Source: Nitrospira sp.
GTDB lineage: Bacteria > Nitrospirota > Nitrospiria > Nitrospirales > Nitrospiraceae
NCBI GenBank assembly: GCA_030123565.1
Contig: CP126122.1
Coordinates: 3,796,800 to 3,860,799 of the forward strand
Direction of reading: 5' to 3'
Length of the DNA stretch: 64,000 nt
The position numbers and the translations under genes were made by a program. A model generated the notes under the pieces. That model did no database searches and was not told the origin of the DNA. It saw only the letters and a list, made by a program, of their open reading frames with translations. Positions 39,333-55,312 of this stretch are shown one piece after another (the stretch's first letter is position 1; every line of letters begins with the position of its first letter).

Positions 39333-40139
39333 TCACAACGAATGTAGGGCTTGGAGTCCCGCCCGTGCCTGCGCGGCCATAGCCGCAAGGCCGGCCCTGA
39401 CTTCCTGCGCATGATGCACAGGACTCGTGAAGGCGACCCGTCCCCCCTGCATACGGCCGGGAGTCTTGATCCGCAGGTGAAACCCCAGCCGATCCAGCGC
39501 CGTCACCGTCGCCTGCTGCGCCTCCACCTTGCCGAACACCCGGGCGAGCAGCAACAGCGTCTCGGCCTGTTCGGTATTGATTTCACGGATCAGATGCGAG
39601 GCTTCGTCCGCCAGCGGGTCTACGGCAGCCGCCGCATAGTCTTCCGGCGTGACCCAACCCATCGAACCGAAGCCCCCGACGAAATAGATGTCGGCGATCG
39701 CCATGCGAAAGAATCCAAAGTCATTGAAGTCCACCCAGTAGGAAGCATTGGCATGTCGAGCCAGGTAGAGTTCGCGAATCTGAGCAAGATCTTCCTTCGG
39801 CACCTTCGTCACCGACCCCATCAACGTGACTCGGGCGGCGCCCAAGGGATCGCTGCCGCTCTCGGGCGGTGTCACCAGCAGGCTGGCCCGTGGATCGCCC
39901 AGAAGGTTTTGCGTATGCATCGCCATCGTGCTGATGAGAAAGACCGGCTGCCCCTGGGCATCGAGCCCGTAGGGCATGACCGACCCAAAGGGCCAACCAG
40001 GCTGCTTGCGCGAGAGGGTCGAGAGACTGCCGGTCCGCTGCAGATGGACCAGCGTCTTCGCACGTTCGGCATGGGACGGTTCAGGAACGTCAGGGCCGTC
40101 GGAATCCGGACCGCTGTTATGCTGTCGCGATGATGACAC
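39333..40139 (-). CDS. HugZ-like pyridoxamine-phosphate-oxidase-fold protein
   Basis: The 268-residue protein (GTG start, GGAGGG six bases upstream) has an N-terminal split-barrel domain. It contains RTGSLSTLSRKQPGWPFGS, QPVFLISTMAMHTQNLLGDP and ARVTLMGSVTKV. The C-terminal DUF2470-like part carries DEASHLIREINTEQAETLLLLARVFG. This fits the HugZ group, some of which degrade haem; haem ligands are not obvious here, so substrate remains open. It stands between the SYLF gene and the decayed toxin region. Confidence 0.85.
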   Translation of the reverse strand: MSSSRQHNSGPDSDGPDVPEPSHAERAKTLVHLQRTGSLSTLSRKQPGWPFGSVMPYGLDAQGQPVFLISTMAMHTQNLLGDPRASLLVTPPESGSDPLGAARVTLMGSVTKVPKEDLAQIRELYLARHANASYWVDFNDFGFFRMAIADIYFVGGFGSMGWVTPEDYAAAAVDPLADEASHLIREINTEQAETLLLLARVFGKVEAQQATVTALDRLGFHLRIKTPGRMQGGRVAFTSPVHHAQEVRAGLAAMAAQARAGLQALHSL

Positions 40140-41368: not shown

Positions 41369-42166
41369 TTATTCCCTCATAACGAGTCGGCGAAAGGTTT
41401 CCAAATGTTCCGGACTGCTCAATCGGTGATCGCCGGTTTTCAACAGCAGTTCGATCGGAAACTCGGGATCGTGCGACAACATCTGTCGCACGAACGCCCA
41501 GCTCCCCTCCGGACGGATCACGGTATCCTGCAGGCCGTGCAGGATCGTCGTCTTGATGAGGCGCGGGCGCGACAACCGCCGTTGCCAGAGTATTTCGCTG
41601 TCTTCGACCCAGTTCCAGGGAATCGGCGCCTCTCGGTGCAACGGTTCATCATCCCAGGGCATGGAGCCCGCCGCCTGCCACCGCGCCCGCCGTTCGGCGG
41701 AAATGTCGGCGGCCCGCACCCCCATCATGTTGAAGGCCGGAGCGATCAGGATCAATTCCTCCACCGCCTGCTGCTCCTGCGCGACCAGCCAAGCCAGCCA
41801 GCCACCGAGGGAGTTGCCGACAATCGTCACCCGGGGAGACGGCGCGTCCCGGCGCCCCTGGGTTGGGTGGGTAAGATCTGTTCCATCGTTCAGCATTTTC
41901 GTGACCGCCTGCGCATCCTCCAGCCATTGCAGCAGTCGATAGTCGCCCCACTTTCCATCCGAATCACCCCAGCCGCGAAAGTCGAAGCAACAGAAACCCC
42001 AGCCCCGCTCCCAGCACCATTGCGCCAGTGCCTTGCTCTTATTGCCCCAACGTTTGGACAAAAAACCGGTGATGAAGAGAAGCTGCCGGTCCTTACCCAC
42101 TGCGCGATCGCCTCGGATCAGCTTGCCGTCGGCGGCCTTGAGTTGAAAAGATTCCACGCGGCTCAC
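41369..42166 (-). CDS. alpha/beta-hydrolase
   Basis: The 265-residue product begins at GTG 42166. The nucleophile elbow is GNSLGG, the acid residue is in HGLQDTVIRPEGS, and the His is in GDHRLSSPEH. The FITGFLSKRWGNKSKA and FDFRGWGDSDG segments are typical of the esterase-lipase group. Its substrate is unknown. It follows the carboxylesterase gene by one base and is coupled to the small cysteine protein downstream. Confidence 0.88.
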   Translation of the reverse strand: MSRVESFQLKAADGKLIRGDRAVGKDRQLLFITGFLSKRWGNKSKALAQWCWERGWGFCCFDFRGWGDSDGKWGDYRLLQWLEDAQAVTKMLNDGTDLTHPTQGRRDAPSPRVTIVGNSLGGWLAWLVAQEQQAVEELILIAPAFNMMGVRAADISAERRARWQAAGSMPWDDEPLHREAPIPWNWVEDSEILWQRRLSRPRLIKTTILHGLQDTVIRPEGSWAFVRQMLSHDPEFPIELLLKTGDHRLSSPEHLETFRRLVMRE

Positions 42167-42167
42167 C

Positions 42168-42881
42168 CTACCTCAACAGAGTCGTCAGAAAGACGCCGAG
42201 CTGTCTCAAGACCGGCTCCGGGATTTCATGGCCGCCGCGGAAGGGATGCCACTCGACCTTCACGCCTGCTTGGAGGAATTGGTCCCGCAACCGTTCCGCC
42301 ATCACATAGGCCAGGATCGGGTCCTGGGTGCCGTGGCTCTGAAAGATCGGCAGGCCCTTTCGTTTCGCCAGCAAGGGACCCCATTCCTGTTTGGCCACCA
42401 GGGTCCCGGAGAGTTGGATGAGCCCTGCATAGGATTGCGCGCTGTGCAGCAGAACATCGCAGGAGAGCATGGCGCCTTGCGAGAAGCCGCCCAGGATCAT
42501 GTGCTTGGGATCGACGCCGAGTTTTCGGGGAAGCTCTTCCAGCAAACTCCCTACCCGCTCACGCGCTTCAGCCATCCCGCGGGGGATTTCGTTTGAGATG
42601 TCCCGAATTTTGCCCGCCGCCCGATCCGCCTGGATGCGCGCCATGTCGATCATCCACCAGGCGCGTGAATCGCCCATCCCCATCGGGATCGAGATCGGCG
42701 CTTCAGGAAAGAGAAAACGGGTACCGGCCGGCGTGTCGAGGTATTCGCTGAGGGGAACCAAGTCGTCTCCCGGCGCCCCGAAACCATGCAGCAGCACCAC
42801 CAGCGGACCGTTGCCACCCCCTTTGCCGTCGGTGCCACCGGTCAGGCGGACCGTCAAACCTCCGAGTTTGTCCATACGCAT
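42168..42881 (-). CDS. phospholipase/carboxylesterase-family hydrolase
   Basis: The 237-residue protein resembles the YpfH/esterase family: VVLLHGFGAPGDDLVPLSEY, nucleophile motif GGFSQGAML, acid motif HGTQDPILAY and histidine in RGGHEIPEPV. It is a cytoplasmic serine hydrolase, of unidentified acyl ester specificity. GGGAG lies about ten bases before ATG 42881. It is the first gene of a three-gene unit with the next hydrolase and the small cysteine protein. Confidence 0.9.
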   Translation of the reverse strand: MRMDKLGGLTVRLTGGTDGKGGGNGPLVVLLHGFGAPGDDLVPLSEYLDTPAGTRFLFPEAPISIPMGMGDSRAWWMIDMARIQADRAAGKIRDISNEIPRGMAEARERVGSLLEELPRKLGVDPKHMILGGFSQGAMLSCDVLLHSAQSYAGLIQLSGTLVAKQEWGPLLAKRKGLPIFQSHGTQDPILAYVMAERLRDQFLQAGVKVEWHPFRGGHEIPEPVLRQLGVFLTTLLR

Positions 42882-43030: not shown

Positions 43031-46000
43031 TTATTGGCCGAGGTACCAGTATTGGAGGAAGGCGAGTGCTGCGACCAATGTGGCCTGCACGACCGGCTGT
43101 TGGTAGAACGGCACGAAGGCTCCTTGCTGAACGGAGTCGATCTCGCTGATGATCTGACGTAGGCGCTCGCTCGAAGGACCCGTAGCCAATTTTTGATCGG
43201 TCGTCTCATCCTGCGTCATGGCCCGATCGAGTGTTTCTTGGATAGATGCGAGCACCCTCCCCTTCGCCCCGACCGCCGCCAGATATAATAGGCAGGCGCT
43301 GGCGAGAGCCACGAGACTGTTGACCATCAATGCCACGATCAAGGCGGGCGGAAAATCCCAATTGTCGAAGTAGTGGCTCCTGGCCCCAACCACGATAAAC
43401 AGCACCAAGAAAGGATAGAGCGTCCGACGATTGACGACCCTGGTTCGCTCTACGATCAAGCGAATTTTTGCCAGCTCGCTCAGCCCGGAGCTGAACGAGG
43501 TTTCGCTGATCCACCTGGCGCAGAGTAAAATGGCGTCCAGGACTGCCAAATTCAACGCAATGAGCAACGCAACACTTGTCCGGGTCAGATAGAAATCCAC
43601 ATCACAACTGAACTCGCCCCGACAGGGGACGAACAAACGCAACTCACCGTCATTCATGAACATCCACACCGGAAAAATGATCAGCAGATAGGTGAGAAAC
43701 CATAGCGCAATCCTGGCCACCCGTTGAGGCCAGGTATGGGCCTGACAATACTGAGCCCAGAGCTCGACCGCTGTTCCCGGACCACCCAACTTTGAGCCAT
43801 GGAACATCCAGTCCAGGTTGCGCCAAAACCCCTCCAGACTTTGCCGCAACCCTTGTGTCCGCATAGTCGTCGGGTAATCGGCTGGAAAGAATCTTCTGGT
43901 TAGATCGTCGGTATTGTTGACCAAATCCGCCCTCGCCTTGATCAAGAATACGAGGCACAACAGCGCGGCGAACAGCCGGAACAGTTCCGTGGGCCAAACG
44001 CTCACCCCGTCGAACCAGGAAAAGGGTTCATCCTCCGCATAATTGAAGTGCCGGATCTTGCACCACAGGAGAAGCACTCCCAGGGCCGGCAACGCGACGC
44101 ACGCCGGTCGGAGCAATCTCTTGAAGTGCCTCGTTCTGCCATCGATCTCATCCCTTGCCGTCAGCCAGTTCCACAATCTTCCATGACTCCATACCGTGAG
44201 GAAGACCAGGACTACAAAGACGATCCAGAGTGGTCCGATCCGATTTGGGAGCTCCAGGGTCTTTTGATCGGCTCCGACATCATTCCGCGACGGATGGACG
44301 CTCTTGGTTTCGTCGTTGGGACGATCCACGCTGAGATCAACGGCTCCGTGTCGACCGATCTCGAACAGGCGGGGCGGTATCGCAAGGCTATATACAATCT
44401 CCTTCTCGTCGCCCAGCCGTAATGGGTAGGAAAAGGTTTTCCCTTCGCCGAACTTGTCGTGAGCCGTCGTAGGGGTGATATGGCCGATCGCATTCAAGAC
44501 GGCGAAGAATGCCGAGGTTTGATAACTCGTTCGAAACGGAGGAATGGTCTGTTGAAATTCCGGCGCCAACTGCAAGCCGAAGTGGGACACGACAAGCACA
44601 TTGCGAGTCCACTTCTGTTCGCTCTCATGGAAGTACCGCGCGTCCAAATCGGTCGCGAAGAACAGAACGGTCGGAAACTGTTCTCGCACCGCTTGGAGGA
44701 TGAGGAGCGCATCGTAGGGATCTGTCCCCAGAATTCCGATGGCCTTGATCTTTCTGCTCCGCTCCTTATCGCCCCGCTGCTCCGCCTTGCCCTGCTCCTC
44801 GGATTTGATGCGCGTGATGAGTCTCCGAACATAATCCAGCTGCGAGGGCCCTTCAGGTTTTTCATACGATGAAATGTCGCGAAGCTTTGCCTTGCCGCCA
44901 TCCCCCTTCTCTTTCTCTCTGTCTTCGTTCTTGGGCTTGCTCGACCGATCTTCCGGCACTTCTCCGTCCAGACCGCTCAAATAACTATACTGTCTGATGT
45001 TCAGATCATGCTGGGAGATCTCTCCCTTCTTGAGTCTGTCCACACCTTGTTCTGTCGTTGGACATTGCCCGCTGTAACGACAGGCTGCCGCACTGAACGT
45101 GATGGGGAGCGCGCGAGCGTAAAAGGAGTCCCATTCCCCAATGAGCACGATCGAATCCTTCCCGACGGTCACCTGCCTCCGATCGAGTTCATCAAACAGG
45201 GATTCGAACAGCACCCTGTCGCTGTCTGTGCTGTACCGGAGATCAAGGCCTGCATCCGACAGTAATTGGTGAAACATGTCGTTGCAGGCTGCATAGGAGT
45301 GACATTCGTCACCTGCTCCGGATTTTGGTCGCTTTAGCCCATAGGCGAGGAGGCCCGGCATGGCCGTGGCCCAGGGCGAGTAGAGCGCCAGATGGCCCTT
45401 GTCCTGTTGCCAGAAGAACGGCTCCGTTTTCTTGACGTCCCTTTCCTTCTTCATTTGGCCACTATTCTGAATCTCCTTGAGCAAACCGCGAAACTCCGAC
45501 GAGCTGCGAGGGCCGATGATTTTCGCCGCAACCTTCGACGTAACGTCCGGCGGGCGGAGCATCTTAAGCAACTCGTCAATGTGTTGCAGAATCGATTCCC
45601 TCCACTCATCCGCCGCCACCCAAAGCACGAGGACCTGGCGATCTTTTCCTTCCTCTGCCCGTTCACTCGGTGCCCGACAAACCGCAATTTTGCTGCGTCG
45701 GTACCATTCATAGGGCGTCGCAAATGAACGGAGGCCGGAGTCCGTTTTAAAATTCCCTGTGAAATAGGACAAAAATTGTGTCTTTTCCGGTTTGAAACAT
45801 CCGACCTCCAGCGCTGCCTCCACGGCAAAGCGATCCCGGATACGCGACTCACTGTCATCCACGTAGGACCCTCCCCTGGTCATCACGAGGAGGGCCGTGA
45901 TCTGTTCGCCTCGCTTGACGACGTCTCTTATCTTTTTTTGCAAGACAGCCAGTCCATCGTTCTGGGTGCTCTTGAGCAGCGAGCTGACCTTCACCTCTCC

Positions 46001-46297
46001 CGTCAGGGATTGTGCCGGACCTTTCTCGACGACGGAAAGATTTACCTTCCCTTCCCCTGTGAGCAGCCAACCATTCTGTTTTCTGGCTTCGAGGTCCTTT
46101 TGAACCGCCGCAAAGGGATCCTCCCAGAGTCTGGCGTGGGCCTTCAGTTCGCTGGTCGTTCCGTTCAGGTCGGTCCCGTTGCCCGACGGCCGTGAACTTT
46201 TCAACGGCACCTTGACGAACACAACCGCTGCCACTGCGAGGACTAATGTCACGGTTGTAGCAACTGAGAACTTTGAGTCGTCCCCCTTGAAGGCCAC
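43031..46297 (-). CDS. 1088-residue multi-pass membrane protein of unknown function
   Basis: The GTG start at 46297 has GGAAGG three bases upstream. One N-terminal helix lies at residues about 12-30. About 650 mostly hydrophilic residues follow, with a basic/acidic linker near 455-480. About eight C-terminal helices lie near residues 687-706, 728-750, 765-787, 857-880, 903-926, 956-975, 981-1008 and 1068-1086. The large domain has KDSIVLIGEWDSFYARALP (around residue 385). From about residue 509 it has IKAIGILGTDPYDALLILQA and DLDARYFHESEQKWTRN, then IPPFRTSYQTS. This recalls a type-I periplasmic-binding-protein fold, but no family is firmly recognised. The gene stands alone and looks less GC-rich than its neighbours. 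Confidence 0.7.
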   Translation of the reverse strand: MAFKGDDSKFSVATTVTLVLAVAAVVFVKVPLKSSRPSGNGTDLNGTTSELKAHARLWEDPFAAVQKDLEARKQNGWLLTGEGKVNLSVVEKGPAQSLTGEVKVSSLLKSTQNDGLAVLQKKIRDVVKRGEQITALLVMTRGGSYVDDSESRIRDRFAVEAALEVGCFKPEKTQFLSYFTGNFKTDSGLRSFATPYEWYRRSKIAVCRAPSERAEEGKDRQVLVLWVAADEWRESILQHIDELLKMLRPPDVTSKVAAKIIGPRSSSEFRGLLKEIQNSGQMKKERDVKKTEPFFWQQDKGHLALYSPWATAMPGLLAYGLKRPKSGAGDECHSYAACNDMFHQLLSDAGLDLRYSTDSDRVLFESLFDELDRRQVTVGKDSIVLIGEWDSFYARALPITFSAAACRYSGQCPTTEQGVDRLKKGEISQHDLNIRQYSYLSGLDGEVPEDRSSKPKNEDREKEKGDGGKAKLRDISSYEKPEGPSQLDYVRRLITRIKSEEQGKAEQRGDKERSRKIKAIGILGTDPYDALLILQAVREQFPTVLFFATDLDARYFHESEQKWTRNVLVVSHFGLQLAPEFQQTIPPFRTSYQTSAFFAVLNAIGHITPTTAHDKFGEGKTFSYPLRLGDEKEIVYSLAIPPRLFEIGRHGAVDLSVDRPNDETKSVHPSRNDVGADQKTLELPNRIGPLWIVFVVLVFLTVWSHGRLWNWLTARDEIDGRTRHFKRLLRPACVALPALGVLLLWCKIRHFNYAEDEPFSWFDGVSVWPTELFRLFAALLCLVFLIKARADLVNNTDDLTRRFFPADYPTTMRTQGLRQSLEGFWRNLDWMFHGSKLGGPGTAVELWAQYCQAHTWPQRVARIALWFLTYLLIIFPVWMFMNDGELRLFVPCRGEFSCDVDFYLTRTSVALLIALNLAVLDAILLCARWISETSFSSGLSELAKIRLIVERTRVVNRRTLYPFLVLFIVVGARSHYFDNWDFPPALIVALMVNSLVALASACLLYLAAVGAKGRVLASIQETLDRAMTQDETTDQKLATGPSSERLRQIISEIDSVQQGAFVPFYQQPVVQATLVAALAFLQYWYLGQ

Positions 46298-46543: not shown

Positions 46544-48040
46544 TTACGACGAGCAGCTCACCGCGATGTGTTTGCCCCAATTCGGGGGCGGGGCGGCATA
46601 GGAGTCCATGCCGGGCTGGTCGCTGTAGGGATCTTGGAGCAGTTTGAGCAGCCGGTCGATTTCTGAATAGTCTTTCTGCTGGGCCTTCTCGATCGCGACC
46701 TGCGCCAGGTAGTTGCGCAGAACGTACTTGGGGTTCACCCGGTCCATCCGCCGACGGCGTTCTTCGTCGCGGCTACCCTCGCTTCGCAATCGCTCACCGT
46801 AGCGAGCTGCCCAGGCGTCGAACCCCTCTCTGTTCAGAAACAAGTCGCGGAGTGCGTGACGAACCCCCTCTCCCTTCAAGGGAGAGGGAGGGGTGAGGGT
46901 GTTCAACCCACTCAGTTCGCGCCAAAAGATCGTGTAATCCACCCGACTGCCGACCAGGAGCGCCTGTAGGTCCTGCAACAGGGCTTCATCGTCAGGGCGT
47001 TCTTCCAACAGCCCCAGCTTGGCCCGCATCAGGTCCCGATAGTGCCGATCGAAGATCACCTGGTAACGATCGAGCGCCGCTTTCAACTCTTCCTTGGGCG
47101 CCAGCGGCAAGAGGGTCTGCGCCAGACAACTCAGGTTCCAGAGCCCGATGTAGGGCTGCTGGTTGAAGGCATACCGGCCGTTGTGGTCCGAATGGTTGCA
47201 GATGAAGCCGGGATCGTAGTCATCTATGAAGCCGTAGGGACCATAGTCCAGCGTGATGCCGAGGATCGACATATTGTCGGTATTCAACACGCCGTGCGCC
47301 CAGCCGACCGCTTGCCATTGCGCGATCAGCTTGGCCGTGCGCTCGACCACTTCGATAAAGAAGCGGGCATACTTGTCCGCCGCCGACACGAGGTGGGGGA
47401 AGTGCATCTCGATCGTATAATCCGCCAGCCGTTGCAGCTGTTCATGATGTTTCCGGTAGTAAAAAATCTCGAACGTGCCGAATCGCACATGCGAGGGCGC
47501 CATGCGGACGATCGTCGCCGCGGTCTCGATCTGCTCGCGGTAGACCCTGTCGTCGCTCCCGACCAGACAGAGCGCACGTGTCGTGGGAATGCCGAGGCCC
47601 TGCATGGCTTCGCAACAGAGGTATTCACGGATCGCCGAGCGCAGCACGGACCGTCCGTCGCCATCGCGGGAAAACGGCGTCATCCCCGCCCCTTTCAAAT
47701 GCAGATCCCAGCGCTCGCCCCGTTCGTTGGTCACTTCCCCGAGCAGGATCGCCCGCCCGTCACCGAGCTGCGGCACATATACCCCGAACTGATGTCCGGA
47801 ATAGAGCATCGCCAACGGTTCCATGCCCGGCACGAGGAGGCTCCCGCCGAAGACACCGGCGAATTCCGGACGTGTGGCCTCATCCCGGTCCAGATCGATG
47901 AGCGCCATCGCTGCCGGATTCACGCTGATGAGCGAAGGCGGCGCGGAGAACGGCGTGGGGGTCACCCTGGCATAAAACGCCTCCGGCAGGCGCGCGTAGC
48001 TGTTGTCGAAGGTGAGCGTTTCGAGGCTGTGACGACTCAT
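46544..48040 (-). CDS. selO: protein adenylyltransferase SelO
   Basis: The 498-residue pseudokinase AMPylates proteins, linked to redox control. Family blocks are present: YSGHQFGVYVPQLGDGRA, WDLHLKGAGMTPFSRDGDG, FGTFEIFYYRKHHEQL, WAHGVLNTDNMSILGIT and IDDYDPGFICNHSD. The C-terminus differs from SelO with selenocysteine in eukaryotes, as usual for bacteria. Oddity: residues about 381-393 (TLTPPSPLKGEGVRH) are encoded by a REP-like palindrome, so a mobile-type repeat has joined the frame without breaking it. It follows the DUF2294 gene on the same strand. Confidence 0.92.
   Translation of the reverse strand: MSRHSLETLTFDNSYARLPEAFYARVTPTPFSAPPSLISVNPAAMALIDLDRDEATRPEFAGVFGGSLLVPGMEPLAMLYSGHQFGVYVPQLGDGRAILLGEVTNERGERWDLHLKGAGMTPFSRDGDGRSVLRSAIREYLCCEAMQGLGIPTTRALCLVGSDDRVYREQIETAATIVRMAPSHVRFGTFEIFYYRKHHEQLQRLADYTIEMHFPHLVSAADKYARFFIEVVERTAKLIAQWQAVGWAHGVLNTDNMSILGITLDYGPYGFIDDYDPGFICNHSDHNGRYAFNQQPYIGLWNLSCLAQTLLPLAPKEELKAALDRYQVIFDRHYRDLMRAKLGLLEERPDDEALLQDLQALLVGSRVDYTIFWRELSGLNTLTPPSPLKGEGVRHALRDLFLNREGFDAWAARYGERLRSEGSRDEERRRRMDRVNPKYVLRNYLAQVAIEKAQQKDYSEIDRLLKLLQDPYSDQPGMDSYAAPPPNWGKHIAVSCSS
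46866..46888. repeat. perfect 11-base-arm palindrome inside selO
   Basis: CCCTCTCCCTT and AAGGGAGAGGG flank a single C. The 23-base palindrome resembles REP-like elements normally found between genes. It keeps the selO frame and encodes SPLKGEG. Confidence 0.85.
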
Positions 48041-48122: not shown

Positions 48123-48494
48123 TTACTGCGGAGGACGATAGTTGGCTTCCAAGTCCGATTCCAAGGTAAAGACGAAGACGCGCTCCCCGACTACCGTATC
48201 GATGTCGGTAAACAAGGCCGTGATCTTCACGCCGATGAGCTCCGTCACCTGTTCGCAGAGCCGTTCGCGGCCCTGGGCGATGAGGGTCTGGCGCAGCCGT
48301 TTCACCATGTCGATGCCCTCGGGCGTTTTGGCCAACTGCCGCTCCGCGGGCGTCAGCACGCCCTTCAACCGCACGACGAGCATGTCCCGCACGATGAACG
48401 CCCGGACTTCGTCGGGACCGCGCCCGAGAAATTCCTGTTCGAACTTGATGATCGCCGTCCGGACTGCGGCTTCCTTTTCTCCCTTGCTGGGCAT
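48123..48494 (-). CDS. DUF2294-family protein
   Basis: The 123-residue product matches the DUF2294 (Na-translocating decarboxylase subunit-like) domain: IIKFEQEFLGRGPDEVRAFIVRDM, LVVRLKGVLTPAERQLAKT and FTDIDTVVGERVFVFTLE. Members occur in many bacteria without a proven role. Some sit near carbon-uptake genes, and this copy lies directly opposite the dab operon. It leads the selO transcription unit. Confidence 0.85.
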   Translation of the reverse strand: MPSKGEKEAAVRTAIIKFEQEFLGRGPDEVRAFIVRDMLVVRLKGVLTPAERQLAKTPEGIDMVKRLRQTLIAQGRERLCEQVTELIGVKITALFTDIDTVVGERVFVFTLESDLEANYRPPQ

Positions 48495-48540
48495 CGGCGG
48501 TCGGATCCTTCTCGTTGTCCGATGGAAATTGGTCCGGCCG

Positions 48541-48569
48541 ATTATACCCAGGGGCCGACGGTTTCATCC
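48541..48569 (-). promoter_or_regulatory. candidate promoter for DUF2294-selO
   Basis: On the minus strand TATAAT at 48546-48541 is preceded after 17 bases by GGATGA, a poor -35 box. The ATG at 48494 is about 45 bases downstream. The perfect -10 is the main support. Confidence 0.45.
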
Positions 48570-48620
48570 AGTCCGATTGACTCTCGTTGCCGTGGAAGGA
48601 ACTGTCGGATGGTAGGACGG

Positions 48621-48666
48621 CGCGCGCATCCAAGGAGGGCCGGCTGAAGTCACGTTGCGCGAGCAG
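48621..48666. repeat. dispersed repeat with GCGCGC / TTGCGCGAGCA ends, copy 1
   Basis: CGCGCGCATCCAAGGAGGGC at the left and CGTTGCGCGAGCAGA at the right match the element at 59421-59467. The segment between the ends differs. It lies in the leader region of the dab operon. Confidence 0.6.
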
Positions 48667-48722
48667 AGGCGGTGGCGACGAACGGTGAGAGAAATATGGG
48701 GCCGGGCACGACGCGCTCGACT

Positions 48723-48755
48723 GGGCCCATCGGGACCGGTGACTGGGCCCTTTTT
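48723..48755 (+). terminator. hairpin plus T-run in the dab leader, possible attenuator
   Basis: GGGCCCA (48723-48729) and TGGGCCC (48744-48750) can pair across a 14-base loop and are followed by TTTTT, the pattern of an intrinsic terminator on the plus strand. No plus-strand gene ends upstream, so it would act on a leader transcript of the dab operon. The wider interval 48495-49002 (508 bases) contains the DUF2294 promoter, a dispersed repeat and this hairpin, but no convincing gene. Confidence 0.55.
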
Positions 48756-49002
48756 CTCCGACTTTTCGCTTGCATTTGCGAGGGTGGCACGGATACATGT
48801 AACGCTGTTTTTCGGTGGTGCCGCCGAAAGGCCGTGGTTCTGCGCGGCCCGGACCCACGTCATCGGCGTCATGGGACAGGCAGTAGGGTCTTACGGTGTT
48901 TCCTCCCGGGAAAGGCCGGAGACAGTGCGGGCCAGTCGTTGGTTCCTTGTCTCAAGGACCGTCGGCTGGCCTTTTGCTTTTCATGCGGAGAATGGGGTCG
49001 GC

Positions 49003-50697
49003 ATGTCCTTTCTAGTGCTCGTCGCGTTGTTGCCGCTCGTGACGGCGTTCATCGTGATGACCGGCGACTGCACGGAACAGGAGCGGAATGCGAGGATCGG
49101 CTGGTTTCCCATCATCGCCTCCTTCTTCGGGGCCGTAACCACACTCGTGCTCGTCACGCTCAACGGACCGGTTTCCGTGCGGCTGTACGATCCCGACGCG
49201 ATTGCCAATCTCGCCTTCCCGATCGGTTTTCATATCGACCGCCTCAGCGCGATCATGATGACGCTTATCACCGGAGTGGTGACAATCCTCTACCGCTACT
49301 CCATGGGCTATATGTACCAGGATCGTGGTTATCGTCGTTATCTGGGGCTGCTCGGCATCACAACCTCGGTCCTGATCTGCATGGTGTCCAGCGCCAATTT
49401 GGTGATGCTGTTTCTTTTCTGGCAGCTCGTCTCATGGCTCCTCTTTATTCTAGGCCATAACCATGGACATCTCGCGACTCTCGTGGGTGCTTCCCATACC
49501 TTCAAAATCTTGCGCCTCAGTGACGTGACGTTTCTCACCGGCATTGTCCTGGCCTATTCCCTCTACGGCACCTTCGAGTTTCAGCCGCTCTTCGAGCGCG
49601 CTGCCGACATCCCTGTCACCCTGTCGATTTGGCCGGCACTCGGGTGGGAGATGAACGGCGTAACGGCTGTGACCCTGCTCATTTTCGGCGGGGCGATGGG
49701 CAAGTCGGCCCAATTCCCCTTCCATACCTGGCTCCCGCCCGCGCTCTATGCCCCCACGCCCAGCACTGCGCTCCTCCATGCCGGCATCATCAATGCCGGG
49801 GGGTTCCTGTTAAACCGGCTCGCCCCGCTCTACGGCCAGAGTTCGACAACCCTGCATGTGGTGTTCGTCGTCGGCACGCTCACGACCATCCTCGGTGCGA
49901 CCATGATGTTGACCCAGAACGACATCAAGAAGACGCTCGGCTTTTCAACGATCGGTCAGATGGGCTACATGATCATGGAATGTGGCTTGGGCGCTTTCTC
50001 TCTGGCCGTCTTTCACTTGCTCGCGCACGGCCTGTTCAAGGTCATGGCGTTCCTGAACTCAGGCAATGTGATTCACAAGGCACGTCAGGAACCGGCATTC
50101 CCGAACATTGGCCATGGCGCAGAGCAAGGCGAATTCTCCAACCTGACATGGTCCACCGGCTTCCTCACGACGTTGTTTCTTCCGCTCGTGATCCTGCTGG
50201 TGACCCACGGTGTCTTGCACATTCCCCTGCTCGAATCACAGGGGACCGTCATCTTCCTCTTTTTCATCTGGGTGACCTCGTCGCAGGCGATCCTCTCGCT
50301 GACGCATCTCCGCGCCGTCGCTTCCTGGAAGGTGTCCGCCGCCATGCTGCTGACCCTGGTCCTAGTCGTCTTCACCTACCTGTTCGCCGTGGAAAGCTTT
50401 ACCCACTTTCTGTATCCGGATCCGGAGGAGGTGGCGTCCTACTTCAGGGCCGCGGCATTGCCGGGACGGCTCTTCGACAGTCTGGTGGTGGGGACGACCC
50501 TGCTGACCATCCTCAGTTGGTGTTATCTCTATGCCCGTGCCCATGGCCGCACGATCCGGATTCCCGGATGGATTGACACGTCCATGCATCGCCTCTATGT
50601 CACCTTCATGAACCGGCTCTATCTGGGTCAACTCTATCTCAAGTTGGGCCGGACCGTCGCGCTGGTGGCCGAACGTCTGGAGAAGCGGCTGTCATGA
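49003..50697 (+). CDS. dabB: DabB-like proton-conducting membrane subunit (NuoL/MrpA family)
   Basis: The 564-residue polytopic protein belongs to the proton-translocating NuoL family: GASHTFKILRLSDVTFLTGI, GAMGKSAQFPFHTWLPPALY and APTPSTALLHAGIINAGGF. A Lys/Glu-bearing transport path is expected. In DAB systems this subunit couples proton flow to DabA, which hydrates CO2 and gathers inorganic carbon. ATG 49003 is chosen (GGGG at five bases); the frame open from 48655 is not protein-like. It overlaps the next gene by four bases. Confidence 0.9.
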   Translation: MSFLVLVALLPLVTAFIVMTGDCTEQERNARIGWFPIIASFFGAVTTLVLVTLNGPVSVRLYDPDAIANLAFPIGFHIDRLSAIMMTLITGVVTILYRYSMGYMYQDRGYRRYLGLLGITTSVLICMVSSANLVMLFLFWQLVSWLLFILGHNHGHLATLVGASHTFKILRLSDVTFLTGIVLAYSLYGTFEFQPLFERAADIPVTLSIWPALGWEMNGVTAVTLLIFGGAMGKSAQFPFHTWLPPALYAPTPSTALLHAGIINAGGFLLNRLAPLYGQSSTTLHVVFVVGTLTTILGATMMLTQNDIKKTLGFSTIGQMGYMIMECGLGAFSLAVFHLLAHGLFKVMAFLNSGNVIHKARQEPAFPNIGHGAEQGEFSNLTWSTGFLTTLFLPLVILLVTHGVLHIPLLESQGTVIFLFFIWVTSSQAILSLTHLRAVASWKVSAAMLLTLVLVVFTYLFAVESFTHFLYPDPEEVASYFRAAALPGRLFDSLVVGTTLLTILSWCYLYARAHGRTIRIPGWIDTSMHRLYVTFMNRLYLGQLYLKLGRTVALVAERLEKRLS

Positions 50698-52010
50698 CGA
50701 ACCTGATACCGGCCTGGATGGCACCATGGCTGCTTGTCGGCGTCCCCTGCCTCGGCGCGGCATTCAGCCTGCTCCTGCGAGCATCGCTGGATCGCACGAA
50801 GGCCTGCGCCTTGGCCACGGCGGCCGCCAGCCTGTTCACGGTGGCGGGCTTGTCCTGGACGATGACCTTCCAGCCGGCCGGTATGCTTCTCCTCTTCCTG
50901 CTTCCGGCGGCGTCCTTTCTCTCGCTGCTGGGACAACCGCTACATCAGGATAATCGAGCGGCCTGGTCGATGACGTTGTTGCTGTTAGGGTTGGGGCTGG
51001 GCATCCTGAGCGCCGGGGAACCGGCTCGCACCGTCTTGCTCGTCACCCTGCTCGGTCTTCTCTGCGGCTTGATCTATCGGTATCGAAACGTTGTCCTGCC
51101 GGACCCCTGGCGAGGGCTGGCGACCTATGGCCTGGGCATGGCCTCGACCCTGCTGGCTCTGGCCCTCCCGGCACCGGCTGCCACCGTCGCAGCTCTCGTG
51201 ACCTGTGCGACCCTGCTGCCCCTGCTTCCGGTGCATGGAGGATTCGTCGCGGTCCTCACGGGATTACCGGGCAACCTTCCTGCGTTTCTGGTCTTCCTGT
51301 TGCCCGCGCTCGGCTTTCACGGCCTTGTGCTCCTGCTTCCGAACCTGACCGGTACGATGTTCCACACCCTGGCGCTGCTGGCCCTGGCCGGCGCCGTCTA
51401 CGGATCGCTGCGGGCCTTGATTCAGTCGCGTCCGCTGCCTCGCCTCGCCTATGCCGGCCTGGCATTGTTTTCCATGCTCTGGTGGTATGTCGCTGACACG
51501 GGAACCGCACCCGTGCAGGCTTCGGTCTATCTCAGCGCCGTGGGCCTCGCGATAAGCGGGCTCCTGCTGGCCTGGTACGCGATCCGGGCTCGGTACGGCG
51601 AGATCGACCTGCGCGCCCTCAGCGGCTTGGCCTATCCCATGCCCCGCTTCAGCACCCTCATGACGTTGCTGGCGCTCGCCGCCCTGGGCATGCCGCCCTT
51701 CGGCGTGTTTGCCGGGTTCCTGGGCATGTTGCTCAATCCCGCGTTTGCGCCGTCCGGACCCTTCGCCGTCATCATGCTCGCTTGGCTCAGTTCGTCCTGG
51801 TACTTGATCGAGCTGGTGCAACAAGTGGTTTTCGGCCGGCAACGGCCGGATCTGCGGTATGAAGACCTGCGCCGGACGGAATTTGCTTCTCTGGTCCTGT
51901 TGCTGCTGCTGCTGCTGGTCTTGGGCACCGCCCCCTCCCGATTATTTGAATCGAGCGCCGCGACTCCTCCCGCTTCTGTTGCGATGAAGGGTGAGAGATG
52001 GATCCGTTGA
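50694..52010 (+). CDS. second, shorter NuoM-like membrane subunit of the DAB operon
   Basis: The 438-residue protein is almost entirely hydrophobic helices (about twelve). It shows a weak resemblance to the NuoM/NuoL group, for example PRLAYAGLALFSMLWWYVAD and STLMTLLALAALGMPPFGVF. It overlaps dabB at its start by four bases (ATGA) and dabA at its end by 13 bases, so it is an integral member of the operon. It may form a membrane complex with DabB; the common two-gene DAB has no such extra subunit. Confidence 0.82.
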   Translation: MTNLIPAWMAPWLLVGVPCLGAAFSLLLRASLDRTKACALATAAASLFTVAGLSWTMTFQPAGMLLLFLLPAASFLSLLGQPLHQDNRAAWSMTLLLLGLGLGILSAGEPARTVLLVTLLGLLCGLIYRYRNVVLPDPWRGLATYGLGMASTLLALALPAPAATVAALVTCATLLPLLPVHGGFVAVLTGLPGNLPAFLVFLLPALGFHGLVLLLPNLTGTMFHTLALLALAGAVYGSLRALIQSRPLPRLAYAGLALFSMLWWYVADTGTAPVQASVYLSAVGLAISGLLLAWYAIRARYGEIDLRALSGLAYPMPRFSTLMTLLALAALGMPPFGVFAGFLGMLLNPAFAPSGPFAVIMLAWLSSSWYLIELVQQVVFGRQRPDLRYEDLRRTEFASLVLLLLLLLVLGTAPSRLFESSAATPPASVAMKGERWIR

Positions 52011-55000
52011 TCCGCACCGACGATGCACCGGACATCGAAGCGCGCCGCATGGAGCTGCGGGCCATGATCCGCCTCGCCAGCGAGGTGATCGCGCAATATT
52101 GGCCCATGCGGACCTTCGTCCACCACAATCCGTTGCATAGCCTGGAGTACCTGCCGTTCACGGAAACGGTCCGCCGCGGGCAACAATTCCTGGGCGGCAA
52201 CGGCTACCTCCCCGGTGAGGTCTATCGACGGTACTTGAAGTCCGGCAGAATTTTGGTTCGCCACATCGAGGAGGCCGTGGCGCCGCTGGCGCGCGATCAG
52301 GAAGTGGTCCTCGGCCCCTGCCGCATCTCGCACCGGGAGGTGTTGCGGGCCTGTCTCACCCATGGGCTGTCCGCACCGACGGACGAACCGCTCGATCGTC
52401 TGATGGAACGGGAGCCGAACGAGGAGCAAGTCGAAGACCTGGCCGAGCGCCTGGTGTCCCTGACCTCGCCGACCGTCCAGGAAAGGATGGCCGTCACGGT
52501 CCGCGAAGATGTGGCTGCATTGGGACGGCAGGTGACGCTGTCGAGTTGGTGCGACCGGACATTGGGCACCGACATCGTGCAACAGATCAACAGCGAGTTG
52601 ATCAAGTGGTGCGAAGCCTTTCTGGACGAGGGCCATGCCACCTGGCCGATGCCGGGGCGGGAACAGGGGCTCTATTCAGCCTGGAAGGCGCTGGCTGCAA
52701 AAGAATGGATGACCTGCGGCATCGCTGACAGCCGTCGGAAGATCGCCTCGTTGCCGGAACATCCCGAGGACACGGTCCTCGACTGCCTCGAGACCCTGGC
52801 GATCCCGGCGGAGTTCCGGCAGGACTACCTCGCGCTCCAACTCGCGGCCCTGCCCGGTTGGGCCGGGTTCATCAAATGGCGCGCGGAAGAAACCAGCTAC
52901 GCCTGGCAACAGGCCTATCCCGTCGGGCTGGTGAAGTTCCTCGCCGTCCGTTTGTGGTACGTGAGCGAACTGGTCCAGAAAGTCTGCCGGGATGAATTGG
53001 GCATCGAAGGGAATTATCGCTCGATCTCGACCTTCATGGAGCAGGAGCCCCACGCCTACTTCATGCGCAAGGAACGGGCGGCAGGACGGCTGTCGGCCGC
53101 CTATGCCGAACTGGTCGATCGGCTTCATGCCAGGACCGGAAGGCGGGACGGAGCGGCAGCCCTCTCGCGCGAGTGGGAACAGCTCGCCCATCGGTACCAA
53201 ATAGAATTCGGACCACGCCGCGAACGGGCCGCACGGCGGGTCATGGCTCGACGCCTGCTCGCGCTCGCCCAGGCGCTTGAGATCGTCCCGACCCTGTTGA
53301 TGGAAGGGCCCCCGGCGGACCTTCGTCTGCTCCTCGATTGGATGGATGCCTTTCCGGAATCGGAACATGGTCCCGTGTGGCTCAAGGCCTTCGAGGCGGG
53401 GTATCAGGATCACCTCTTCGGCATGCTCCTGCGCGCGCCGGCCAAGCCCCAACCGGCCGTCCCGGACCGCCAACCACCCGTACGGCCCCATTCGCAATCG
53501 GTCTTTTGCATCGACGTGCGCTCCGAGCCGTTCCGCCGCCACCTGGAATCGACGGGCGCGAACGACACCTACGGCTTCGCGGGATTCTTCGCGGTCTTCA
53601 TCCGGTATCGGGCCTGGGGCAAGGAACATGAGACCGAGCAGTTTCCGGTGATCATGCGCGCGAAGAACGAAGTGCGGGAGATCCCCCGCAGCTACCTGGA
53701 CCACTACGTATCGAAACACCAGTCGCGGGCCAAACTCGTCCATGCCGGCCACACCCTGCTGCACGACCTCAAGGAGAATGTCGTGACGCCCTATGTCATG
53801 GTGGAGTCGTTGGGATGGTTTTACACGCTCCCCATCGTGGGAAAGACCTTATTGCCCGCCCTGTACAAACGCCTGACCGGCTGGGTGCGGCGCCTGTTCG
53901 TCCCGCCGATCGCCACCAGCCTCACGGTGGACAAGCTGGCTCCGGCCGAAACCGAAGAGATGGTGGTGTCCGAACAACGGGCGCTGATCTGGAAGGCGTT
54001 GCGCGACCGGCTCGGACTCCATGGATCGCGGGTCGACCCGGAATTCGTCGAGGCGCTCCGCCGGCGGGCCCTGGATGAAGATGCGCCGGTCGAGCCGTTC
54101 TTGAGCGACGCGGCGGAGGCGGTCGAATTGTCGGCGGAGCAACTGGCGGCATTTCTCGACGAGCTCCGGCGGCACTACCACATCAATCGCCGCGCAGCAT
54201 CCCGCCAGAAGGAGCGGATTACGCGGACCGGCTTCACGCTCGACGAGCAGGTCATCACGGTGGAAACCGCGCTGCGCATGATGGGGCTGGTCAGGAACTT
54301 CGCGCGGCTCGTGCTCTTTTGCGCGCACGGCAGCACCACCGAGAACAATCCCTTCGAATCGGCGCTCGATTGCGGCGCCTGCGGAGGGAACGAAGGGAAA
54401 CCCAACTCCCGTGTGCTGGCTGCCATGGCCAACCGGCAGCCGGTCCGGGAACGGCTGGCGAAACGCGGCATCGAGATTCCGCCGGATACACATTTCCTCG
54501 CGGGCCAAGTGGATACCACGATGGACGAGGTCCAGCTCTTCGATCTCGAAGACGTGCCGCCGACCCATCGCAAGGACGTGGCCAGGCTGTTCGACGACCT
54601 GCGGGAAGCGGCCCAACTGACGAGTCAGGAGCGCTGCGCCAGATTTCCCGATGTCGGCGCCGTCCTGCCGCTGACCGCGGCGACCACCGAGGTGGCCGAA
54701 CGCAGCGCGGACTGGAGCCAGGTGCGGCCGGAATGGGGCCTGTCCGGCAATACGGCGTTCCTCATCGGCCGGCGGGACCTGACCAAGGGACTCAATCTGG
54801 CCGGACGAGTGTTCCTCCATTCCTATGACTATCGGGAAGACCCGACGGACCGGTTGCTCGAAGTGCTCCTGACCGCGCCGCAAGTGGTGGCGCAGTGGAT
54901 CAACATGGAACATTATTTCTCGACCGTGGACAATGAGGTCTATGGAGGCGGGAGTAAGATCTATCACAACGTCGTCGGCCGCATCGGCATCATGTCCGGA

Positions 55001-55312
55001 CCCTGGAGCGATCTGCGGCTCGGCCTGGCCTGGCAGACCGTCATGAACGGCGACATGCCCTATCACGAACCCATGCGTCTCCTGACGCTCGTCGAAGCGC
55101 CGCGTGCGCGTATCGAGAAACTCATCGCCAGGCACGAGGTGTTGCAACATTTCTATCACAACGAGTGGGTGCACCTGGCGGCACTGGACCCGGAGGACGG
55201 AACCTGGTACCGCTATATGCCGTCGGGGGTCTGGCGCCGGGTCAGACATCCCGACGACAGCTACACCGAAGCAAGCATCCCGACTGGCAAGACCTCATTG
55301 CAAAGGAGTTGA
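51998..55312 (+). CDS. dabA: inorganic-carbon transporter DabA (DUF2309)
   Basis: The 1104-residue soluble subunit has a beta-carbonic-anhydrase-like zinc site. Candidate ligands are Cys504 and Asp506 in FCIDVRSEPFRRHLE and His777 and Cys792 in FCAHGSTTENNPFESALDC, the same Cys/Asp-His/Cys arrangement and spacing as in characterised DabA. N-terminal WPMRTFVHHNPLHSLEYLPF is typical. With DabB it uses the proton gradient to make bicarbonate from CO2. The overlap with the preceding gene suggests coupled synthesis. Confidence 0.95.
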   Translation: MDPLIRTDDAPDIEARRMELRAMIRLASEVIAQYWPMRTFVHHNPLHSLEYLPFTETVRRGQQFLGGNGYLPGEVYRRYLKSGRILVRHIEEAVAPLARDQEVVLGPCRISHREVLRACLTHGLSAPTDEPLDRLMEREPNEEQVEDLAERLVSLTSPTVQERMAVTVREDVAALGRQVTLSSWCDRTLGTDIVQQINSELIKWCEAFLDEGHATWPMPGREQGLYSAWKALAAKEWMTCGIADSRRKIASLPEHPEDTVLDCLETLAIPAEFRQDYLALQLAALPGWAGFIKWRAEETSYAWQQAYPVGLVKFLAVRLWYVSELVQKVCRDELGIEGNYRSISTFMEQEPHAYFMRKERAAGRLSAAYAELVDRLHARTGRRDGAAALSREWEQLAHRYQIEFGPRRERAARRVMARRLLALAQALEIVPTLLMEGPPADLRLLLDWMDAFPESEHGPVWLKAFEAGYQDHLFGMLLRAPAKPQPAVPDRQPPVRPHSQSVFCIDVRSEPFRRHLESTGANDTYGFAGFFAVFIRYRAWGKEHETEQFPVIMRAKNEVREIPRSYLDHYVSKHQSRAKLVHAGHTLLHDLKENVVTPYVMVESLGWFYTLPIVGKTLLPALYKRLTGWVRRLFVPPIATSLTVDKLAPAETEEMVVSEQRALIWKALRDRLGLHGSRVDPEFVEALRRRALDEDAPVEPFLSDAAEAVELSAEQLAAFLDELRRHYHINRRAASRQKERITRTGFTLDEQVITVETALRMMGLVRNFARLVLFCAHGSTTENNPFESALDCGACGGNEGKPNSRVLAAMANRQPVRERLAKRGIEIPPDTHFLAGQVDTTMDEVQLFDLEDVPPTHRKDVARLFDDLREAAQLTSQERCARFPDVGAVLPLTAATTEVAERSADWSQVRPEWGLSGNTAFLIGRRDLTKGLNLAGRVFLHSYDYREDPTDRLLEVLLTAPQVVAQWINMEHYFSTVDNEVYGGGSKIYHNVVGRIGIMSGPWSDLRLGLAWQTVMNGDMPYHEPMRLLTLVEAPRARIEKLIARHEVLQHFYHNEWVHLAALDPEDGTWYRYMPSGVWRRVRHPDDSYTEASIPTGKTSLQRS

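Follow-up and report, generated by a model that had tools for sequence, protein, structure and literature searches.

The window analysed here is a stretch of 64,000 nucleotides from a Nitrospira sp. genome (assembly GCA_030123565.1, contig CP126122.1, positions 3,796,800 to 3,860,799), a single contig of 4.62 Mb whose closest relatives are Nitrospira. On its minus strand lies the gene of a 1088-residue membrane protein, called gene X in the following. Our analysis suggests, with a probability of roughly 0.55, that this protein is a receptor-channel in which a Venus flytrap domain gates a membrane body folded like the seven-transmembrane ion channels (7TMICs), i.e. the odorant receptors (ORs) and gustatory receptors (GRs) of insects. 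Prediction and comparison show gene X itself, the fold of its flytrap, how the protein runs through the membrane, the structural match of its membrane body and the conservation at the pocket positions. Gene X and its features are as follows, in window positions.

43031-46297, minus strand: gene X, a 1088-residue membrane protein with predicted Venus flytrap and 7TMIC-like parts (open reading frame, homologues, purifying selection).
46217-46273, minus strand: N-terminal membrane helix, residues 9-27, N-terminus inside, predicted to anchor the flytrap in the periplasm (hydropathy; model, with low predicted local distance difference test (pLDDT) values here).
46115-46132, minus strand: RLW[EQ]DP motif, residues 56-61, between the anchor and the flytrap (invariant columns in alignments A1 and A2).
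44318-45910, minus strand: predicted Venus flytrap domain with the type-I periplasmic-binding fold, residues ~130-660 (AlphaFold2, Foldseek, VIA Z 15-18).
45500-45514, minus strand: GPRSS, residues 262-266, with S266 in the stretch that aligns with SSS 77-79, the serines by which LivK binds carboxylate (hhalign register at weak E; S266 in 66/69 homologues).
45362-45382, minus strand: YSPWATA, residues 306-312, aligned with LivK ISPGATN (weak hhalign; S307 in 67/69 and T/S311 in 67/69 homologues).
45113-45136, minus strand: EWDSFYAR, residues 388-395, aligned with LivK HDKQQYGEG (weak hhalign; Y393 in 66/69 homologues, D390 and R395 invariant).
44636-44659, minus strand: FATDLDAR, residues 547-554, aligned with LivK FMGPEGV (weak hhalign; D/E550 in 63/69 homologues).
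44186-44239, minus strand: additional membrane helix, residues 687-704, that links the flytrap with the seven-helix body (hydropathy, both models).
43037-44140, minus strand: seven-helix body S1-S7b, residues 720-1087, with a predicted 7TMIC-like (insect OR/GR) fold (model of the membrane part alone, Foldseek, VIA).
43997-44053, minus strand: periplasmic loop S1-S2 with conserved EPFSWxDGVSxWP (homologue alignments, conservation).
43604-43654, minus strand: periplasmic loop S3-S4 with conserved PCRG (homologue alignments, conservation).
43343-43378, minus strand: periplasmic loop S5-S6 with conserved YFDxW (homologue alignments, conservation).
43037-43171, minus strand: split last helix, S7a (residues 1043-1054) and S7b (1068-1087, the putative pore helix, GAFxP...P...[QED]Y) (both models, conservation).

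Gene X is an open reading frame of 1088 codons that starts with GTG at 46297 and whose stop codon ends at 43031, exactly the span given in a preliminary description of the sequence. That description also held that the start signals are ordinary and the G+C content lower than in the neighbours, and both statements agree with our data: the purine-rich, ribosome-binding-like GAGGGAAGG stands directly 5' of the GTG, and the G+C content per kb is 55.5-55.7% across the gene versus about 59-62% in the surroundings. Gene X has intact homologues across many genomes, and its comparison with four close relatives gives nonsynonymous rates (dN) of 0.16-0.25, well below the synonymous rates (dS) of 0.67-1.54 (dN/dS pairs from 0.16/0.67 to 0.23/1.54), hence it is a real gene and, judging from these rates, is under purifying selection. 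The layout proposed earlier, with one N-terminal helix, a long soluble part and eight C-terminal helices, was recovered by the hydropathy over 53 homologues and by an AlphaFold2 model, which place a helix at residues 9-27, a soluble part at 28-686 and eight membrane helices after it.

The full-length AlphaFold2 model was built from the 53 homologues with mean pLDDT 76 and a predicted template modelling score (pTM) of 0.74. Strands and helices alternate regularly in it from residue 132 to about 650, and its best Foldseek matches in the PDB are type-I solute-binding proteins (E 2e-5 to 1e-3). When model residues 129-661 were compared with type-I binding proteins using VIA, Z values of 15-18 were obtained across about 300 residues, namely 18.3 for LivK 3td9 (298 residues aligned, root-mean-square deviation (rmsd) 3.4), 16.6 for AmiC 1pea and 15.7 for UrtA 8hic. 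By these model comparisons residues ~130-660 almost certainly adopt the two-lobed type-I periplasmic-binding (Venus flytrap) fold. The earlier guess of a type-I periplasmic-binding module fused to a membrane body is thus supported by the structural match, and the two sequence blocks on which it was based, IGILGTDPYDALLILQA (residues 520-536) and DLDARYFHESEQKWTRN (550-566), sit in the second lobe of the flytrap. No Peripla_BP family profile of Pfam or NCBIfam matched the protein; the flytrap is therefore not filed in these sequence families and shares their fold.

The pocket of the flytrap may be recognizable through LivK. The best hhalign alignment, a weak one, places GPRSSS, YSPWAT and EWDSFY on CSSS, ISPGAT and DKQQY of LivK, and an alternative, likewise weak, places FFATD on FMGPE. 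We did not accept the LivK alignment as proof, since alternatives exist at similar E-values, and consider it supportive only. The positions matching the LivK pocket regions in these weak alignments, S266, S307, T/S311, Y393 and D/E550, are near-invariant in 69 homologues, and further invariant residues of the flytrap are E150, R152, D390, R395, D526, D529, R565, N566, F588, R589, Q593 and E646. Flytraps have a motif for alpha-amino-acid recognition, e.g. Ser165 of mGlu1 (PMC2680970). As such residues are used in flytrap recognition and the five pocket positions are so well kept, an alpha-amino-acid-like ligand is plausible from the sequences.

Type-I binding proteins usually serve ATP-binding cassette (ABC) importers, and three relatives of gene X weakly match BPD_transp_2, the LivH-type permease family (best E 0.015). 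Hence one could think of a self-contained transporter in which a solute, e.g. an amino acid, passes from the flytrap to the permease-like body fused with it, a reading we hold to be distinctly improbable. The locus has no ABC import ATPase, the ABC_tran protein of L041 being of a soluble two-ATPase type and several genes off, and LivH-like proteins are absent from the structural matches of the membrane body, which is not proof. The weak Pfam matches are spread over many families, as by chance, and those to BPD_transp_2 were rejected as evidence of a permease for being weak and scattered.

The membrane body was modelled separately from residues 681-1088 (pLDDT 81, pTM 0.79) and searched with Foldseek against 350,542 PDB chains. 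The first 11 ranks are insect receptors only, namely AaegOR10, Gr43a, Orco, ApisOrco/OR5, Gr9, Gr64a and MhOR5, with E 0.01-0.52 and AaegOR10 at the top (E 0.010, probability 1.00); from rank 12 onward the matches are mainly unrelated coiled or helical proteins with more ORs and GRs interspersed. The VIA re-alignment puts ORs and GRs at ranks 1-15 and 17-20, with a designed repeat protein at rank 16. For these ORs and GRs, 268-298 residues were aligned at rmsd 5.3-6.6 with Z values between 9.9 and 12.7, e.g. 12.7 for BmGr9 (291 residues, rmsd 6.1) and 11.5 for Orco 6c70_A (298 residues, rmsd 6.4), and the alignments to these two cover residues 31-408 of the separate model and the targets nearly end to end. 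A Dali Z above 10 to Orco was the cut-off of an earlier screen (PMC9998090), a value that 11.5 for 6c70_A exceeds with the reservation that VIA is not DALI. The full-length model also matched GRs by Foldseek, i.e. Gr43a (E 0.036, probability 0.95) and Gr9. The preliminary description had counted the eight C-terminal helices correctly and had missed the resemblance to insect chemoreceptors. The training data of AlphaFold2 end in April 2018. The solved OR and GR structures date from August 2018 on, the first being 6c70, so a memorised template is unlikely to be behind the match.

The predicted topology points in the same direction. The fraction of lysine and arginine over the 53 homologues is 0.014, 0.087 and 0.011 in the predicted periplasmic loops and 0.13-0.21 in the cytoplasmic ones, which suggests that S1 starts inside and that the C-terminus is outside. 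Members of the 7TMIC superfamily have seven membrane helices, an intracellular N-terminus and an extracellular C-terminus (PMC9998090, PMC11563456), an orientation opposite to that of the G-protein-coupled receptors (GPCRs) (PMC11563456). S1-S7b fit this plan, with the extra helix preceding S1. Further marks of the superfamily are a cytoplasmic anchor formed by long TM4, TM5 and TM6, a TM7 divided into a cytoplasmic 7a and a pore-lining 7b, and activity as a tetrameric cation channel. The helices from S1 to S7b have 30, 37, 26, 39, about 31, 49, 13 and 20 residues in the gene X body, and 28 (S1), 46 (S2), 36 (S3), 52 (S4), 53 (S5), 45 (S6), 15 (S7a) and 21 (S7b) in BmGr9 (PMC11100771); S4 (39 residues) and S6 (49 residues) are thus long in gene X as well. 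The last helix is split (1043-1054 and 1068-1087) in both the full-length and the separate model. S5 of BmGr9 has a conserved proline break and is coupled to S7b (PMC11100771). In the gene X body S5 breaks near the invariant P962, and no other membrane helices are as conserved as S5 and S7b.

A number of results weigh against the receptor-channel reading. The Foldseek values for the membrane body are weak (E 0.01-0.5, template modelling scores 0.2-0.39), helical bundles may reach VIA Z values of up to about 13 by common arrangement alone, and no PDB profile matched the gene X protein to link it in sequence to ORs and GRs; these points would also fit a coincidence between long helix bundles, with an unrelated membrane fold under a real flytrap and a function left open. 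The designed repeat protein reaches Z 10.2 against the membrane body. S5, of about 31 residues with its break, is shorter than in GRs (53 in BmGr9). The TYhhhhhQF motif in the seventh membrane helix of insect GRs is not kept in the 69 homologues, whose C-terminus reads hhhh[QED]Y, and the lone match to Pfam 7tm_7 (E 0.043) was rejected as sequence proof as it aligns S6-S7 on the wrong part of the profile; with the motif absent and the sole match out of register, the protein is not filed as an insect GR (Pfam 7tm_7). Outside insects the motif is conserved partly or not at all (PMC9998090). For the soluble part the preliminary description had proposed both structure prediction and a profile-profile search; the former gave the match described above, and the latter, by hhalign against the LivK family alignment, was not significant (E about 0.05 to 0.2).

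A coincidence is nevertheless improbable in our estimate, as a single superfamily, represented by several OR and GR lineages, fills the first 11 Foldseek and the first 15 VIA rows, in order and nearly end to end, and as the topology, the split S7 and the long S4 and S6 fit and the two models agree. We therefore consider it quite likely, on the strength of the models, that the membrane body has the 7TMIC fold. A viral structure library gave no convincing match to the membrane-body model. Weak Foldseek matches were seen to two BFVD proteins of giant viruses, A0A5K0U8P2 (Yasminevirus, probability 0.80) and A0A1V0SCD1 (Catovirus, probability 0.41), which, by their predicted structures, may be viral 7TMIC-like proteins.

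The ligand type, a tetramer, channel activity and the coupling are what we infer in the following model. The N-terminal helix would hold the two-lobed flytrap in the periplasm, where it would close on a small, probably alpha-amino-acid-like ligand. The closure could be relayed via the helix 687-704 and the periplasmic loops carrying EPFSWxDGVSxWP, PCRG and YFDxW to the seven-helix body, which is predicted to be folded like the insect odorant and gustatory receptor channels and probably forms a tetramer whose pore would be lined by S7b. The relayed movement would open a path for cations and so lead to a change of the membrane potential or to ion entry.

The same fold evidence would hold if the OR/GR-like body were not a channel and passed a conformational signal to a cytoplasmic partner through the long cytoplasmic helices of S4, S6 and S7a. 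The cytoplasmic connections S2-S3, S4-S5 and S6-S7b average 52-66 residues, and some eukaryotic 7TMIC homologues are merely presumed to be channels (PMC9998090). Such a non-channel receptor appears unlikely, as there is no cytoplasmic signalling domain in the protein and no conserved kinase, regulator or cyclase neighbour in the Nitrospira loci, and as S7b, the pore helix of ORs and GRs, is among the most conserved segments, the cytoplasmic loops being less so. We thus lean slightly towards channel function for the modelled body. As a tentative proposal, the gene X family may be a class of bacterial ligand-gated ion channels not described before, in which a 7TMIC pore is gated by an amino-acid-type flytrap; such channels would be widespread in Nitrospira and would also occur in some ammonia oxidisers (Nitrosospira). 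To our knowledge, a bacterial Venus flytrap and the channel fold of insect smell and taste in one chain is not a known combination.

The family consists of proteins of about 1000-1350 residues, common in Nitrospira and sparse in Pseudomonadota. Its spread was sampled within Nitrospirota and Pseudomonadota, and matches were found in 49/246 genomes of the former, 6/398 of the latter and 9/369 of one proteobacterial class. Most genomes of the genus Nitrospira have a close homologue (56-74% identical), and many of these also have, next to dnaE and accA, a more distant copy (about 35%); other Nitrospira contribute a third set (about 38%). A single copy is present in the window genome, and one Nitrosospira and one Nitrosovibrio genome have two homologues each. 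In a quick tree of 69 members the SelO-linked Nitrospira copies, gene X among them, stand apart from the second copies, with which the main Nitrosospira proteins group, and the distant proteobacterial members sit on long branches whose placement is uncertain. A suspected link of paralogous copies to nitrite oxidoreductase, raised by a divergent neighbour of 1150 residues, was dropped when the neighbour was read by eye as DNA polymerase III alpha beside accA. A few genomes carry broken or fragmentary copies (L019/L084 and G110:C4), possibly pseudogenes or assembly errors.

Searches of Pfam, NCBIfam and PADLOC with the gene X protein and its relatives gave no meaningful match, and PDB sequence and profile searches with the protein gave nothing relevant, so these libraries offer no annotation of the family at the sequence level. 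No member was found in the searches of plasmids and viral contigs. In a homologue of 1352 residues (L179, 8945-13003) a coiled coil of roughly 300 residues is inserted after the N-terminal anchor and before the flytrap; the coiled-coil matches of this homologue in the library searches were discarded as low-complexity, and the genes beside it were read by eye as DUF2235-like and PhoD-like.

The neighbours of gene X in the window are the following.

46544-48040, minus strand: SelO (protein adenylyltransferase), conserved upstream neighbour (Pfam PF02696, E 3.2e-147; synteny 45/50).
42168-42881, minus strand: Abhydrolase_2 carboxylesterase, conserved downstream neighbour (Pfam; synteny 39/50, median gap 11 nt).
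41369-42166, minus strand: alpha/beta hydrolase (Hydrolase_4), second gene downstream (Pfam, neighbourhood).

MpsC, SelO, gene X, Abhydrolase_2 and Hydrolase_4 follow each other in this order on the same strand, and a DabB-like antiporter, a 438-residue ORF and DabA diverge from them, so that gene X, claimed earlier to stand alone, shares its direction with SelO, which lies upstream, and with the two alpha/beta hydrolases that follow downstream. The gaps in the window are 246 bp from SelO to gene X and 149 bp from gene X to the first hydrolase. A survey of neighbours in the relatives, also proposed at that time, found both flanks conserved across Nitrospira: where both are readable, 45 of 50 loci have SelO upstream and 39 of 50 have the first hydrolase downstream, and this linkage with its 11-nt median gap suggests, from gene order, an operon of gene X with the hydrolase. 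The linkage of SelO and DabA to gene X is conserved, and we draw no functional inference from it.

Further genes near gene X were noted. MpsC (48123-48494, minus strand) adjoins SelO, the DabB-like antiporter lies at 48655-50697, the 438-residue ORF without a Pfam match at 50694-52010 and DabA at 51998-55312; the region 48123-55312 forms a Dab/Mps cluster for the uptake of inorganic carbon, and its linkage to SelO and gene X recurs in many Nitrospira. A CREG-type beta-barrel/DUF2470 protein, haem-utilisation-like, is encoded at 39333-40139, and relatives such as L041 likewise have it close to gene X. A Caspase-NACHT-WD40-like protein (read by eye) lies near a Nitrosospira homologue (L118, 12599-16915); a defence context was rejected, as L118 alone has it and the other loci do not.

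A Dali screen in 2023 found no Orco-like protein in prokaryotes (PMC9998090), and according to a 2024 review several lines of evidence support a transfer of 7TMICs from eukaryotes to prokaryotes, citing Himmel et al. 2023 (PMC11526382). A bacterial 7TMIC is hence not new in itself. In the literature searched, Himmel et al. 2023 being outside that search, we found no description of the flytrap fusion, of the Nitrospira family or of its spread. If our reading is true, gene X would bear on the origin of the insect chemoreceptor superfamily, which would gain a branch in prokaryotes that has an extracellular domain dedicated to sensing; the 7TMIC channel fold would have a soluble sensor domain through which its gating could be read, and globally important nitrifying bacteria would have an unrecognised sensory input.

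In comparison with the known 7TMICs (insect OR/Orco and the GRs BmGr9, Gr43a and Gr64a, and MhOR5), residues 720-1087 are alike in their predicted fold end to end (VIA Z 9.9-12.7), in the N-in/C-out orientation, the long S4 and S6, the split S7a/S7b and the conserved S5 and S7b. The gene X protein differs in being bacterial, in its large periplasmic flytrap and two extra membrane helices, and in having no detected sequence similarity, no TYhhhhhQF and a shorter S5. With LivJ/LivK, AmiC and UrtA it shares the two-lobed fold (Z 15-18) and, by the weak hhalign, the pocket positions S/S/T/Y/D-E in the same order, whereas its flytrap is membrane-tethered, fused, enlarged by long insertions (about 530 versus about 350 residues) and below the Pfam thresholds. 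Unlike the ABC solute-binding proteins (LivJ/K), which are free or lipid-anchored, it is a polytopic membrane protein, and no cognate ABC permease or ATPase genes were seen beside it.

The class C GPCRs (mGluR, the sweet receptor, CaSR) also combine a flytrap and a seven-helix body in one chain, but the C-terminus of gene X is predicted to be outside, i.e. the opposite topology. The class C GPCR matches of the full-length model were found to be due to the flytrap part and not to the membrane body, and no GPCR is among the first 50 Foldseek matches of the membrane body alone; folds missing from the VIA list, GPCR or others, are not excluded by that list. The N-terminal domains of the ionotropic glutamate receptors (iGluRs) share the type-I fold, while GluR0 and the iGluRs have a gating domain of the type-II binding fold and a pore resembling that of K+ channels. 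The gene X protein resembles GluR0 and the iGluRs in the idea of a periplasmic-binding-type domain that gates a channel, and differs from them in that its flytrap is type-I and its body is 7TMIC-like.

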